Shown here: positions 1 to 19,080 of the stretch, in pieces
How positions within the stretch are numbered: the stretch's first letter is position 1
Layout of the letters: the number at the start of each line of letters is the position of its first letter
NCBI RefSeq assembly: GCF_947496875.1
Contig: NZ_CANMEH010000004.1
Span: forward strand, 186,001-250,000
Length of the DNA: 64,000 nt
Source: an uncultured Paracoccus sp.
Lineage (GTDB): Bacteria; Pseudomonadota; Alphaproteobacteria; Rhodobacterales; Rhodobacteraceae
Direction: 5' to 3'
The notes under the pieces: generated by a model
Told to the model about the DNA's origin: nothing
What the model saw: the letters and a program-made list of their open reading frames with translations, nothing else
The model's database searches: none
Translations under genes and position numbers: made by a program

Positions 1-783
1 CTGCTTGCCTCGGGCTGGATGTTTTCTGCGCTGCAGGAATTCCTTTGCAACAGCGCGGTACGCGGCGCTGCCCTTGGAACCCGGATCGTAATGGATGACC
101 GGCTTTCCGTGCGACGGGGACTCGGAAACCCTTACATTGCGGGGGATCACCGTGGAGAAGACCAGCTCTCCCAAGGTGGACCGCGCGTCAGCCTCGACCT
201 GAATGGCAAGATTGTTTCGATTATCCGACATCGTCAGCAGAACGCCTTCGATCCGCAGATCGGGATTGGCGGACTGGCGCACCTCGCGGATGGTGAGCAG
301 CAGTTGCGACAACCCTTCAAGAGCATAGAACTCCGCCTGCAGTGGCACGAGCACGCTCTGCGCCGCGACCATGGCGTTCAATGTCAGCAGACCGAGCGCC
401 GGGGGGCAGTCGATCAGCACGAACTCGCTCTTCGACTGCGATACGGCCTGCCGCAACAATTTCGTCCGGCTGCTCCGCGCCGAGAGGTCGATATCGGCCG
501 AGGACAGGTCCGCGTTGGCGGGCACGATCGACAGGCGGGGAATCGCCGTGTCGCGTACAGCATCGGCCAACCCGGCTTCGCCCGTCAGCAGATCATAGCT
601 GCTCGGTTCGCGCTGATCGGGATCCAGTGAAAGGCCCGTCGAGGCGTTGCCCTGCGGGTCCAGGTCGACCAACAGCACGCTGTGCCCAAGATCGGCTAAG
701 GCGGCGCCGAGGTTGATGGCGGTGGTAGTTTTTCCCACACCACCTTTTTGATTGGCAATGGCGACGATTGCGGGTTCAGGCAT
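1..783 (-). CDS. parA: Chromosome partitioning ATPase ParA (C-terminal end cut by window edge)
   Basis: Deviant Walker A ATPase that, with ParB bound at parS, segregates the origin region after replication. The reverse strand is open for 261 codons from an ATG at 783 to the window edge. It carries the deviant Walker A KGGVGKTT at residues 13-20, the A' motif DLDPQGN at 40-46 and Walker B FVLIDCPP at 121-128. Chromosomal ParA proteins are about 260-270 residues, so only a few C-terminal residues are probably missing, and parB is expected just beyond position 1. The start overlaps the end of rsmG by 8 bp, which implies translational coupling. Identification is secure from the motifs and from the rsmG-mnmG neighbourhood. 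Confidence 0.95.
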   Translation of the reverse strand, partial: MPEPAIVAIANQKGGVGKTTTAINLGAALADLGHSVLLVDLDPQGNASTGLSLDPDQREPSSYDLLTGEAGLADAVRDTAIPRLSIVPANADLSSADIDLSARSSRTKLLRQAVSQSKSEFVLIDCPPALGLLTLNAMVAAQSVLVPLQAEFYALEGLSQLLLTIREVRQSANPDLRIEGVLLTMSDNRNNLAIQVEADARSTLGELVFSTVIPRNVRVSESPSHGKPVIHYDPGSKGSAAYRAVAKEFLQRRKHPARGKQ

Positions 784-1351
784 GCCGGATGTCCGAGAGC
801 TGCAGGATGGCTGCGCCGGGCCGGGTTCGGCTCGGATGAACATTCAGGGTGAATCGCCAGTCATTCCGCACCGAATCTACCTCGTTCTGCCATGCCTCGC
901 CCTTCATGAGCCAAGCGGTTCCGTGGGGGGCGAGATGCCGCGCCACGTATGGCACGAGCCTCTCGAGTGGAGCAAGCGCACGGGCACTGATATGTTCTGC
1001 TGTTGCGGGAATGCGCTGTTCGATGCGCATGTTCGTGACGCGCACGTTAGGCAGATCGAGTTCGCGCGAGCAGGTTCGCAGGAAGGCGCACTTTCGGGCA
1101 TCCGCCTCGAGCAGTTCAACACTCATTGTGGGACGGAGAATGGCGAGTACAAGCCCGGGCAACCCGCCGCCCGAGCCGAGATCCAGCCAAGAGGGCGCTT
1201 CAGGGGCGACATCGGCGAGTTGTGCGCTGTCCAGAATGTGTCGATCCCACAGGTCGGTGAGCGTGCTTGCTGCCACCAAGTTTATCGACGGACTCCATTT
1301 CTTGACCAGAGCGGCATAGCAGCGAAGCTGCGCTTCACGTGAAGCAATCAC
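776..1351 (-). CDS. rsmG: 16S rRNA (guanine-527-N7)-methyltransferase RsmG (GidB)
   Basis: Methylates N7 of G527 in 16S rRNA using S-adenosylmethionine. The 191-residue product matches the size of alphaproteobacterial RsmG and has the SAM-binding loop [11 protein letters not shown] near residues 56-66, followed by an acidic strand end (ELLEAD). The start is GTG at 1351, overlapping the mnmG stop as GTGA. This gives the N-terminus [19 protein letters not shown], which resembles family N-termini. Codons 2-7 overlap a parS-like sequence. Gene order mnmG-rsmG-parA is the classic arrangement near bacterial origins. Confidence 0.96.
1331..1346. other. parS-like ParB binding site 1 (inside 5' end of rsmG)
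   Basis: The 16-mer CGCTTCACGTGAAGCA matches the conserved bacterial parS TGTTTCACGTGAAACA at 13 of 16 positions. It keeps the invariant CACGTG core and the flanking TT/AA, and is a perfect 14-bp palindrome from 1332 to 1345. It lies within the first codons of rsmG, close to parA and about 5 kb from the proposed origin. That is where ParB sites normally cluster. Confidence 0.75.
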
Positions 1352-3213
1352 GCGGATTGACGAGACTGGCGTCTGATCAATGCGAGCAGCAGCGTCAGGG
1401 CAGCGGGTGTCATGCCCTCGATCCGCGCAGCTTGGGCGATTGTTTCAGGCTGAGAAGCCGACAACTTCTGCTTCAGTTCACCGGATAATCCGGACACTGT
1501 TCCGAAAGCGAAGTCGGGTGGTATGGCAATCGCCTCTTCCCGCCTCAGCGCATCCGCGTCACGAGCTTGCCGGTCCGTGTACTGGGCATAGAGCGCATCC
1601 CGCTGTAGCTGCTCGACGATAAGGGCGTCCACCCTTGCGAGATCGCTGTCGAGAGCCGCGATCCGGTCGTGGGATGTGCCCGCCTGACCAAGCAGCGCGT
1701 AAAGGGAGCGCCGCTGCCCGTCGGCACGAACCTCTATTCCACGTGCGCCGAGTTCGGCCGGGGTGAAGACTGTATTCTTGGCGATGGCCTCGGCCCGGCG
1801 ATACTCGCGGACCTTCCTTTCATGGTGATGCCACCGTTCGTCGCGAACGATACCCAGCTCCCTGCCGAACTGCGTCAGCCGCTGGTCGGCATTGTCTGCC
1901 CGCAGGGACAGCCGGAACTCGGCCCGCGACGTGAACATGCGGTAGGGCTCAGAGACACCGCGTGAGGTCAGATCGTCGATCATCACCCCGATATAGCTCG
2001 ACGTCCGGGAGAAGATGGCGGGCGCGCGCGACGCGACGGATCGGGCCGCATTGAGTCCCGCCACCAGCCCTTGTGCCGCAGCCTCCTCATAGCCCGTGGT
2101 ACCGTTGATTTGCCCGGCCAAGTACAAGCCGGGCACGCGCTTGAGTTCCAAGGTAAGCTTCAAGGCGCGCGGGTCGACATAATCATACTCCACGGCGTAA
2201 CCGGGTTGCAGGATCTCGGCTTCCTCGAGACCCCGCATCGTTCGCACGTAATCGCACTGAACCTCCTCGGGCAGGGATGTCGAGATGCCATTCGGGTAGA
2301 CGATATCGCTGTCCCAGCCTTCCGGTTCCAGGAAAACCTGGTGCGAGCGCTTGTCGAAGAAGCGCACGACCTTGTCTTCAATCGAGGGACAGTACCGCGG
2401 GCCAACGCCTTCGATGCGGCCGCCATACATCGCGGACCGGTCGAGATTATCCCAGATGATGCGGTGTGTCTCCGCATTCGTGTGGGTGATCGCGCATGTG
2501 ACCTGAGGCGCAACAGGACCTTCGCTGAGATAAGAAAACATGACCGGGTCCTCGTCTCCCGGCTGCTGCTCCAGCCGATCCCAGTCGATGGTCCTCCTCG
2601 CAAGGCGCGGGGGGGTCCCCGTCTTCAATCGTCCCAGCGGCAGACCCAGTCGCAGCAATTCCGCCGCCAAGCCTACGGAAGCAGACCCACCCCAGCGTCC
2701 CGCGCGTCGGCTCTGGTCCCCTGTGTGAATGACACCGTTGAGGAAAGTTCCGGCGGTGACAACAACGGCGCCGGCGCCGATCTCGCTCCCCTCTGAAAGG
2801 ACGATGGCCCGAACTCGTCCCGCAGCGTCCCGCAGGAGTTTCGTGACCTCGCCGGCAAGGACGTCCAGCCGGTCGTGATCCAGGACCAAGTCGTTGACCG
2901 CGATCTTGTACAAGTCCCGATCCGCTTGCGCTCTTGGGCCCTGCACTGCTGGTCCCTTGCGTCGGTTCAGCAGACGGAACTGGATGCCAGCCCTGTCGGC
3001 GGCCAACCCCATGATCCCGTCAAGTGCATCTATTTCTCGAACGAGATGTCCCTTTCCGAGCCCCCCGATTGCCGGATTGCACGACATTGTTCCAATGTCA
3101 GCGCTGCGCATCGTGACCAGCAGCGTCGCCGCACCTGTTCGGGCGGATGCAGCTGCCGCCTCGACACCGGCGTGACCGCCTCCGATAACCACGACCTCGT
3201 AGGATTGCTTCAC
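1348..3213 (-). CDS. mnmG: tRNA uridine-5-carboxymethylaminomethyl modification enzyme MnmG (GidA)
   Basis: FAD-dependent subunit that works with MnmE to build the 5-carboxymethylaminomethyl group on wobble U34 of certain tRNAs. The protein is 621 residues, the usual length. It shows the Rossmann FAD motif [13 protein letters not shown] near residues 8-20, the CNPAIGG signature near 45-51 and the conserved [16 protein letters not shown] stretch in the second half. Translation starts at a GTG (3213-3211) lying inside the CACGTG core of a parS-like site. The stop overlaps the rsmG GTG start. The mnmE stop is only 6 bp upstream, so mnmE-mnmG-rsmG-parA is one tight operon. Confidence 0.97.
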
Positions 3214-3221
3214 GTGAAACT
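3206..3221. other. parS-like ParB binding site 2 (mnmE-mnmG junction)
   Basis: TGCTTCACGTGAAACT matches consensus parS at 14 of 16 positions, the best match in the window. It spans the mnmE stop codon, the 6-bp gap and the GTG start of mnmG, so the parS core itself supplies the mnmG initiation codon. Confidence 0.82.
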
Positions 3222-5893: not shown

Positions 5894-6343
5894 TCAGAAC
5901 TTGACGATCACCGACACCACGATGACGACCATCAGGGCAGTCGGAACTTCGTTCATCAGCCGATAGCTTCGGCCCGGAAGCGGCGCCGGCTGCGTCACCA
6001 TGATCTTGCGCTGCCGCGACAGCCAGTGATGGAACCACGTCATCCCGATCACGGCGGCAGCCTTTGTCCAGGGCCATATCATCGACCAGTCAACGATCCC
6101 CGGTGTGAACACAAGCGCCAGGCCCGCGACCCAGGTGGCAATCATGGCGGGGTTCATGATCAGTCGCATGAGCTTTCGCTCCATGATTCTGAACGAATCC
6201 AGCGGCTCGCCAGACTCACCCGCGCGTTCGGCATGATAGACTAGGATGCGCGGCAGGTAGAACAGGCCAGCCATCCAGGACAGCACGGCCATCACGTGAA
6301 ACGACTTCACCCAAGGGTATGCAAGCGCAAGAAAGTCCAACAT
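5894..6343 (-). CDS. hemJ: Protoporphyrinogen IX oxidase HemJ
   Basis: Small integral membrane enzyme that oxidises protoporphyrinogen IX to protoporphyrin IX in heme synthesis; formerly UPF0093. The 149-residue protein has about four membrane segments. It starts MLDFLALAYPWVKSFHVMAV, with His16 in the position of the essential heme-ligand histidine of HemJ, and Lys94 in PWTKAAAVIGMTW as the likely second conserved residue. The ATG at 6343 directly faces the proposed origin. Downstream, 129 bp separate it from rho. The neighbouring hemE found beside hemJ in many relatives is absent here. Confidence 0.92.
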   Translation of the reverse strand: MLDFLALAYPWVKSFHVMAVLSWMAGLFYLPRILVYHAERAGESGEPLDSFRIMERKLMRLIMNPAMIATWVAGLALVFTPGIVDWSMIWPWTKAAAVIGMTWFHHWLSRQRKIMVTQPAPLPGRSYRLMNEVPTALMVVIVVSVIVKF

Positions 6344-6446
6344 GGCGGGACGTGTACGGCCACCTCATCTTAACTGAAAGACTAAAAGAAGGATGATGAT
6401 GGTTGTAGGGGCTGTGGGGTACTGTATGTACGCGTCTGCCGAGCGA

Positions 6447-6455
6447 TTATCCACA
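6447..6455 (+). promoter_or_regulatory. Perfect DnaA box TTATCCACA
   Basis: Exact match to the high-affinity DnaA binding sequence TTATNCACA. It lies in the hemJ-aroE intergenic region and is followed 3 bp later by TGATACACA, one mismatch from the consensus in the same orientation. The AT-rich segment begins about 15 bp downstream. Confidence 0.75.
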
Positions 6456-6561
6456 GGATGATACACAGCTTCATCCTCGTAAATTTTCTTATGAAACGTA
6501 GATCAATCAGTATCTTATACATTATCTGATCGGTTGTTCAGCGACGGGAGCAGCGATCTTT

Positions 6562-6688
6562 GGACAAGCCGAGAACCGCTTGTCCCCCTGTGGAAATCCG
6601 GCCCTGCCGAACCGTTCACATGGGCTCGGATCAGGGCCAGAGGGATCACACCCAGCTTGTCAGAGGCTTCTTACACAGGCTTGTCCCC
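6562..6688. repeat. Repeated GCTTGTCC(CC) motif in the origin region
   Basis: GCTTGTCCCC occurs at 6578-6587 and 6679-6688, a shorter GCTTGTC at 6655-6661, and the inverted copy GGACAAGC at 6562-6569. The inverted copy makes an 8-bp inverted repeat with the 6578 copy. A further GCTTGTCCC lies at 5778-5786 in the rho leader. It is not a DnaA box or parS, and its function is unknown to me. Confidence 0.6.
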
Positions 6689-6781
6689 ATTTCTGTCGTC
6701 AATGCGATGGCCGAGCCGCGGGGGTTGTTCCGACGATCCGTCCGGCCGATGATTGATGCGTCGCACTAGACCGGAGCCTCG

Positions 6782-7630
6782 ATGGCCGACCCTCATCCCA
6801 AGTCGAACGGTATCCCTCTGGCGGGTGTGATCGGCTGGCCGGTCGCTCATTCGCGCTCTCCGGCGCTGCACGCGCACTGGCTGGCGAGGTACGGGATCCG
6901 TGGCTACTACGTTCCCATGGCGGTGCAGCCGGAGCATCTGGCCAATGTCCTGCACACGCTCCCGCAGGCGGGCTTCGTCGGCGCAAACGTCACCATCCCG
7001 CACAAGGAGGCGGTGCTGTCCCTGGCCGATGTCGTTTCTGACCGCGCCGCATTGATCGGTGCGGCCAACACTCTCACCTTCCGGCCGGATGGAAGGATGT
7101 ACGCGGACAACACCGACGGATACGGCTTCATCGCCAACCTGCGTCAGGGGGTGCCTGGATGGCGACCCGACGCCGGCCCCGCGGCGGTGATCGGGGCCGG
7201 CGGCGCTGCCCGGGCCGTTGTCTGTGCATTGCTTGAAAGCGGTGCGCCGGAAATCCGCATCGCGAACCGTACCCGCTTGCGGGCAGAACGGATCCGGTCC
7301 GATTTCGGTCCGCGCGTGATCGTCTGTGACTGGGTCCAGGCCGGCAACATGCTGGACGGGGCTGCCACTGTCGTCAACGCGACATCGATGGGGATGGATG
7401 GTCGACCAGATCTCCGTGTCCCGATGGACATCTTGTCAGCGCAGGCAGTCGTGACCGATCTGGTTTATACGCCGCTGGAGACAGCCTTTCTGGTCAAGGC
7501 ACGCGACAGGGGCTGCGAGGTGGTCGACGGGTTGGGCATGCTGCTGCACCAGGCCGCCCCCGGCTTCGAACGCTGGTTCGGTCAAACCCCGGAGGTCGAC
7601 AATGACCTGCGCCGGGCGGTACTCGCATGA
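6782..7630 (+). CDS. aroE: Shikimate dehydrogenase AroE
   Basis: NADPH-dependent reduction of 3-dehydroshikimate to shikimate in aromatic amino acid synthesis. The 282-residue protein has the substrate motif GWPVAHSRSPALH near 18-30, catalytic Lys75 in NVTIPHKE, Asp112 in NTDGYGF and the NADP-binding GAGGAARAVV near 138-147. The stop overlaps the coaE start (ATGA). aroE-coaE-dnaQ is the standard rightward string beside alphaproteobacterial origins. Confidence 0.97.
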   Translation: MADPHPKSNGIPLAGVIGWPVAHSRSPALHAHWLARYGIRGYYVPMAVQPEHLANVLHTLPQAGFVGANVTIPHKEAVLSLADVVSDRAALIGAANTLTFRPDGRMYADNTDGYGFIANLRQGVPGWRPDAGPAAVIGAGGAARAVVCALLESGAPEIRIANRTRLRAERIRSDFGPRVIVCDWVQAGNMLDGAATVVNATSMGMDGRPDLRVPMDILSAQAVVTDLVYTPLETAFLVKARDRGCEVVDGLGMLLHQAAPGFERWFGQTPEVDNDLRRAVLA

Positions 7631-18196: not shown

Positions 18197-19080
18197 AGCT
18201 GGTTGTCTTGGGGCACGGCTACTCGGCGGGCTTTCTGACCCGTCTGCTGGTGCCGCGGGGATGGGAGGTGGTCGGAACCACCCGGGAAGGCAAGTCGCGC
18301 GTCGCGGCGGACGGCGCCCGGCCGCTGCACTGGCCCGGCGAAGAAGAAGCGGTCCGCTCGGAGCTTGCATCTGCGGATGCGATCCTGATCGGCGCCGCAC
18401 CGGACGAGGCGGGTGATCCGGCCCTGCGGGACTTCGCCGACGCGATCGCGGCCAGCCCGGCACCCTGGCTCGGCTACCTGTCGACGACTGGCGTTTACGG
18501 GGATCGGGACGGCGGCTGGGTCGACGAAAGCTCGTCCCTAAACCCGACCACCCGGCGGGGGCGGGCGCGGGTGACTGCCGAGGCGGACTGGCAGGCGCTG
18601 GCGCTGGCGCATGACCTGCCGCTGCACATCTTTCGTCTGGCCGGCATCTATGGCCCCGGCCGGGGTCCATTCGCCAAGCTGCGCGCGGGCACGGCGCGGC
18701 GGATCGTGAAACCGGGCCAGGTGTTTTCCAGGATCCATGCCGAGGACATCGCGCAGGTGCTTGCGGCGTCGATTGCCCGGCCTGATCCCGGCGCGATCTA
18801 CAATCTCTGTGACGATGATCCCGCACCGCCGCAGGACGTGATCGCCCATGCTGCCGAACTGCTCGGCGTGCCGGTGCCCGAGGCGGAACCGTTCGATACC
18901 GTCGGGATGACGCCGATGGCGCGCAGCTTCTACGCGGACAGCAAGCGCGTGCGGAACGACCTGATCAAGCGGGATCTCGGCGTTCGCCTGCGCTATCCGG
19001 ATTACCGGAGCGGCCTTGCCGCAGTTCTAGCGGCGGAGCAGGCGAACCGTCTCGCTTCACGTGAAACTGTCGGAAGATAG
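18193..19080 (+). CDS. NAD(P)-binding extended SDR / YeeZ-like epimerase-dehydratase family protein
   Basis: 295-residue Rossmann protein. N-terminal [19 protein letters not shown] supplies the nucleotide loop; [19 protein letters not shown] carries the Ser/Thr and Tyr region, and [14 protein letters not shown] is a common extended-SDR strand/loop. The usual catalytic YxxxK is not evident: the region after GVYGD reads [11 protein letters not shown]. It may therefore bind a nucleotide sugar or act non-classically. The extreme 3' end carries a parS-like site (19053-19068). It is translationally coupled to the upstream flavin oxidoreductase. Confidence 0.8.
19053..19068. other. parS-like ParB binding site 3
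   Basis: CGCTTCACGTGAAACT matches consensus parS at 13 of 16 positions, with the full TTCACGTGAAAC core. It lies inside the last codons of the extended SDR gene, about 12.6 kb to the right of the proposed origin, on the opposite side from sites 1 and 2. Confidence 0.75.

Follow-up and report, generated by a model that had tools for sequence, protein, structure and literature searches.

The 438-bp intergenic region between hemJ and aroE in this uncultured Paracoccus sp. (positions 6344..6781) is very likely the chromosomal replication origin, and it abuts these two genes presumably because its edges have lost hemE, PPSR, and an origin-side maf. The stretch of DNA analyzed, hereafter the window, covers 64 kb (G000:C4:186001-250000) of a 3.95-Mb draft assembly with 112 contigs. 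The two boundary genes, namely, hemJ on the minus strand (5894..6343; UPF0093, Pfam PF03653) and aroE on the plus strand (6782..7630; Pfam PF08501 Shikimate_dh_N), both point away from the gap, in agreement with the reversal of gene polarity in the original prediction. The neighbors are also as described there. The hemJ side carries rho, mnmE, mnmG, and rsmG, and just past rsmG, the ORFs and Pfam matches of locus L201 place parA (1..843, minus strand; its last bases lie beyond the window end) and parB (mostly outside the window). On the other side, aroE is followed by coaE and dnaQ. The gene order of this locus, examined in its own genome, contains no hemE, maf, or PPSR at the gap. Taken as a whole, the locus is very probably an ordinary alphaproteobacterial oriC with a lineage-specific and stepwise eroded neighborhood.

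We searched 41 genomes of the genus for hemJ and aroE, including the genome studied here. In 31 of the 40 other Paracoccus genomes, the two matches are 338-570 bp apart, while eight have aroE elsewhere and one (G017, 71% complete) has no hemJ or aroE match. Because the adjacency is common to these 31 genomes, an assembly join between hemJ and aroE is ruled out.

Several of the expected origin elements were found inside the gap. The exact DnaA box TTATCCACA at 6447..6455 on the plus strand is present as predicted; it is the sole exact copy in the 64 kb and one of nine in the 3.95-Mb draft, and some relatives, L030 among them, have TTGTCCACA-like boxes aligned to it. The second box, TGATACACA (6459..6467, plus strand), does start 3 bp after the first and is one mismatch from TTATNCACA, but it differs from TTATCCACA at two positions and is better regarded as a weak DnaA-like site. 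The AT-rich tract holds up well: the 60-mer at 6481..6540 has 72% AT, the highest in the window (57% at the next distinct place), and approximately 0.5% of 438-bp segments match or exceed the gap in AT content. This tract is a candidate duplex-unwinding element. Within it, at 6505..6517 on the plus strand, is a match to WATCARNNNNTTR, which we take to be the consensus for IHF binding; this is the sole exact match on both strands of the window. Among 92 gaps examined, the exact consensus occurs in 12, compared with 2.5 expected from shuffles (maximum 6), and most relatives have no exact match. Since the consensus is not general to these gaps, the match at 6505 is only suggestive of IHF binding.

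Toward aroE, the box-like sites are degenerate. A facing pair, TTGTCCCCC and TGTGGAAAT, occupies 6580..6597, where the aligned consensus of the relatives is TTGTCCACC TGTGGA; TGTGGAAAT is a two-mismatch box. Another two-mismatch DnaA-like site, TTGTCCCCA (6681..6689, plus strand), aligns shortly before the conserved aroE-side box column of the relatives, and that conserved box is not preserved in the window according to the alignment. Thus, the alignment shows degenerate forms at several positions where Paracoccus boxes recur, and the box set of this gap consists of one strong box and weak sites, with no further strong box. With one box at no more than one mismatch, this gap ranks lowest in DnaA-like boxes among 36 Paracoccus gaps (median 4). 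Over the whole window, TTATNCACA with up to one mismatch occurs nine times against 7.3 expected, a count reached by 32 of 100 shuffles. Bare motif counts over the window are no more than chance, and the window alone does not prove an origin. The weight of the evidence rests on the comparison with relatives rather than on these counts.

Given the few boxes in this gap and the two genes diverging from it, the region could alternatively hold only the divergent promoters of hemJ and aroE, regulated by DnaA, with the active origin located elsewhere in the vicinity. The distribution of boxes in relatives argues against this. In 77 of the 80 named loci (L053, L085, and L099 were left out), DnaA-like boxes with up to one mismatch have a density of 6.90 per kb in the gaps (260 in 37,689 bp) and 0.17 per kb outside them (149 in 870,084 bp), an approximately 40-fold difference; for longer gaps, the 500 bp adjoining hemJ were counted and the remainder enters neither figure. 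The 36 Paracoccus gaps (32 distinct) contain 159 boxes, whereas 100 single-base shuffles gave a mean of 2.6 and a maximum of 7. When aligned after removal of identical copies, these gaps have boxes recurring at similar spacings. Both in length and in boxes, the gaps of Paracoccus sp. Z118 and P. haematequi correspond to those of the genus members G040 and G012. The best matches of the HemJ encoded in the window, the top three, are likewise from Paracoccus, and both observations point to this genus. The promoter reading fares no better in the eight Paracoccus genomes with aroE elsewhere (on another contig in two of them): upstream of hemJ, all eight retain 3-7 boxes, and at least 1.4 kb upstream of aroE is free of boxes in every case.

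These rearranged loci have other features. In five of the eight genomes, aroE is in reverse orientation at a distance of 10-25 kb, the arrangement expected after an inversion with one end at the origin. Seven of the eight (L186-L188 and L190-L193) have, in the stretch examined, a gene similar to the origin-side gene of L187, which by eye reads as a Rieske-type ring-hydroxylating oxygenase. Outside the genus, in L053 (Primorskyibacter sedentarius), coaE and maf adjoin the origin and no aroE match was found in the locus.

The clustering of parS at the gap likewise speaks against a promoter region alone. In the draft genome, we found three parS-like sites of the form GYTTCACGTGAARC, all of which are 3-13 kb from the gap (C4 positions 187,332, 189,207, and 205,054, with the gap at 192,344-192,781). 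Two are on the hemJ side, namely, GCTTCACGTGAAGC at the mnmG/rsmG junction (1332..1345) and GCTTCACGTGAAAC at the mnmE/mnmG junction (3207..3220); a second GCTTCACGTGAAAC palindrome is on the aroE arm (19054..19067). Relatives also have sites near hemJ. The exact parS consensus has no match in this genome and is present in six of eight genomes, in which no listed site is more than 22 kb from hemJ or the gap; the four sites of G007 are likewise no farther than 22 kb from its gap. The GYTTCACGTGAARC form was also found in G013 and G040 (two sites each). In G040, one palindrome, GCTTCACGTGAAGC at C106:125356-125369 (in L015), lies inside the hemJ-aroE origin gap. parS sites and parAB, both expected near an oriC, are found close to the gap.

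The evidence from GC skew is mixed. The original prediction called for a cumulative skew minimum at this locus. This agrees with the single-contig relative G050, in which the best-fitting origins span 20-140 kb and include the gap at approximately 79 kb, but not with G007, in which the best fit is at 640-660 kb and the gap at 780 kb is 120-140 kb off, ranking 11th of 163 candidates. The skew scores of G050 and G007 were reached by three and one of 200 shuffles, respectively, under a model of two equal arms and with samples that cover approximately 22% of each chromosome, most of them 39-58 kb apart. Contig C4 itself has no skew switch at the gap; its skew is weak, and the negative samples, 20 of 24, flank the gap on either side. 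The cumulative curve of the window bottoms out near 33 kb, and there is again no switch at the gap. The absence of a switch on C4 and the offset in G007 would fit a promoter region with an origin some distance away, whereas the range in G050 includes the gap. Set against the box density in relatives, the boxes that stay with hemJ, and the parS sites, we consider the promoter-only reading very unlikely. The original prediction that the gap is oriC is upheld by these lines of evidence, together with the AT-rich tract and the IHF match.

Still less credible is a decayed origin in this species, with initiation mainly from another site and the gap left as a relic: the smallest number of boxes among 36 Paracoccus gaps and the degeneracy of sites that relatives conserve would fit it, but the exact box, AT-rich tract, and parS sites are retained, the gaps of G007 and G013 also hold just two boxes each, and the nine exact boxes of the draft (exact boxes being the form searched genome-wide) form no cluster, with only two on one contig, 381 kb apart. 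The exact box TTATCCACA by itself was rejected as an origin locator, as the G007 gap has none.

The absence of hemE, PPSR, and maf from the edges of the origin was claimed from the window, and the gene searches and gene orders support it. The whereabouts of these genes differ. hemE was found on contig C5, beside a gene that by eye reads as hemC. PPSR has no match in this genome; it was found in none of 19 Paracoccus genomes (this one included) compared with 6 of 12 other members of the class, and within the family, 7 of 120 genomes have a match and 113 do not. A single maf is present, adjoining a gene that by eye reads as RNase E/G. Its product is 29-31% identical to two origin-side Maf proteins, whereas these two share 44% identity, and this particular copy appears to be a paralog different from the origin-side maf. 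Among the Paracoccus genomes, 39 of 41 have one maf match, G043 has two pieces, and G017 has none. The two pieces in G043 (C1:382411-382948) make up its sole maf region, which looks broken or misread; this genome is 79% complete and 6% contaminated. Among 118 non-Paracoccus genomes of the family, 106 have at least two matches, 10 have one, and 2 have none. Single maf copies therefore also occur outside Paracoccus.

Gene orders at the origin form a graded series. Three of the seven PPSR-bearing family genomes (L246, L247, and L249) have the order hemE / ori / ppsR-maf-aroE, and the other four (L248, L250, L251, and L252) have hemJ / ori / ppsR-maf-aroE, without hemE nearby. Among the 58 named non-Paracoccus loci, 56 have the order hemJ / ori / maf-aroE if the maf remnant of L085 is included; the exceptions are L053, without aroE, and L099, which is truncated. 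All 22 named Paracoccus loci have hemJ / ori / aroE and so differ from these 56, in which maf or its remnant lies between the origin and aroE. L085 is labeled as Flavobacteriaceae and has a Rhodobacterales gene order at the origin with a short maf match (2486-2668); the label is probably wrong, and its maf is perhaps decaying.

A tree of the 84 among 97 loci that have all four genes, rooted on L246 by choice, placed the 22 maf-less tips, including the locus studied here, in one clade (support 1.0). The hemE-bearing loci diverge first and the remaining PPSR-bearing loci next, ahead of all others (supports 0.999, 0.999, and 0.805); the node that follows has a support of 0.356. This rooting is favored because the class-level loci L002-L005 have both hemE and PPSR at the gap; in L006, a gene that reads as hemH replaces hemE. 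These patterns suggest that hemE was lost first, followed by ppsR and then the origin-side maf. Loss of the origin-side maf appears to mark Paracoccus, and the missing genes reflect a condition of the genus and family rather than one particular to this genome. Among the titles and abstract openings listed in searches of open PMC papers, none names this maf loss in Paracoccus, which is weak evidence of absence.

Comparison with described origins places the gap within a familiar type. Passages of two sources describe hemE and COG1806 as boundary genes of alphaproteobacterial origins, with a change of this boundary in Anaplasmataceae (PMC1914354), and the use of the hemE-ori-COG1806/PPSR cluster in sphingomonads (PMC4741004). 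Like Cori of Caulobacter crescentus and the Rickettsia/sphingomonad type in these passages, the origin proposed here is an intergenic region of at least approximately 400 bp, and shares with them an AT-rich stretch, an IHF site, predicted in our case, and DnaA boxes, of which this gap has one strong copy and otherwise weak sites (PMC1914354; PMC4741004). Unlike the Caulobacter type, the Paracoccus gap is flanked by hemJ and aroE instead of hemE and PPSR (COG1806). The passages on Wolbachia, Ehrlichia, and Anaplasma provide a precedent for a change of boundary gene, in which COG1253 replaced COG1806 by rearrangement (PMC1914354), whereas at the Paracoccus gap the genes are missing stepwise.

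According to passages of PMC6699656, oriC was predicted with Ori-Finder for 101 Rhodobacteraceae strains, with nearness of parAB as one criterion. DnaA boxes, a local GC minimum, and nearness of parAB, as used there, all hold at the hemJ-aroE gap, and these passages do not mention loss of flanking genes. One of the DnaA-box motifs listed in that work, TGTTTCACG, is similar to one half of the parS palindrome found at this locus, so that some of the boxes counted may have been parS sites. Other sources report marker-frequency profiles that include Paracoccus (PMC13342612) and tracking of oriC1 of R. sphaeroides via ParB (PMC6315104). No mention of the oriC of P. aminophilus turned up in a term search of PMC3925955.

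Based on these features, initiation would proceed as follows. DnaA would bind the exact box at 6447, the adjoining weak site, and the degenerate sites toward aroE, and this binding would help unwind the AT-rich tract at 6481-6540, perhaps assisted by IHF bending the DNA at 6505. Helicases would then be loaded for two forks as the origin fires, and ParB on the nearby parS sites would segregate the duplicated origin. During evolution of the family, hemE, PPSR, and the origin-side maf would have been lost from the origin edges, most likely in that order.

A broader reading is that selection keeps the parS-bearing mnmG/mnmE-rho-hemJ segment and the origin as a unit, with origin and centromere sites on one arm, while the aroE arm next to the origin repeatedly loses or moves genes (PPSR, maf, and later aroE, the last in 8 of the 40 other Paracoccus genomes), and that the origin studied here works with almost no strong DnaA boxes. 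We regard this as rather doubtful, as hemE was lost from the hemJ arm too and some parS sites are on the aroE arm. For locating oriC in Paracoccus, whose GC skew is weak, the hemJ-rho side may serve as a practical marker, and both the hemE/PPSR rule and aroE should be treated with caution as unreliable guides. The stepwise losses may also provide a natural series of variants at the origin edge, with which the role of flanking genes in replication initiation could be tested.
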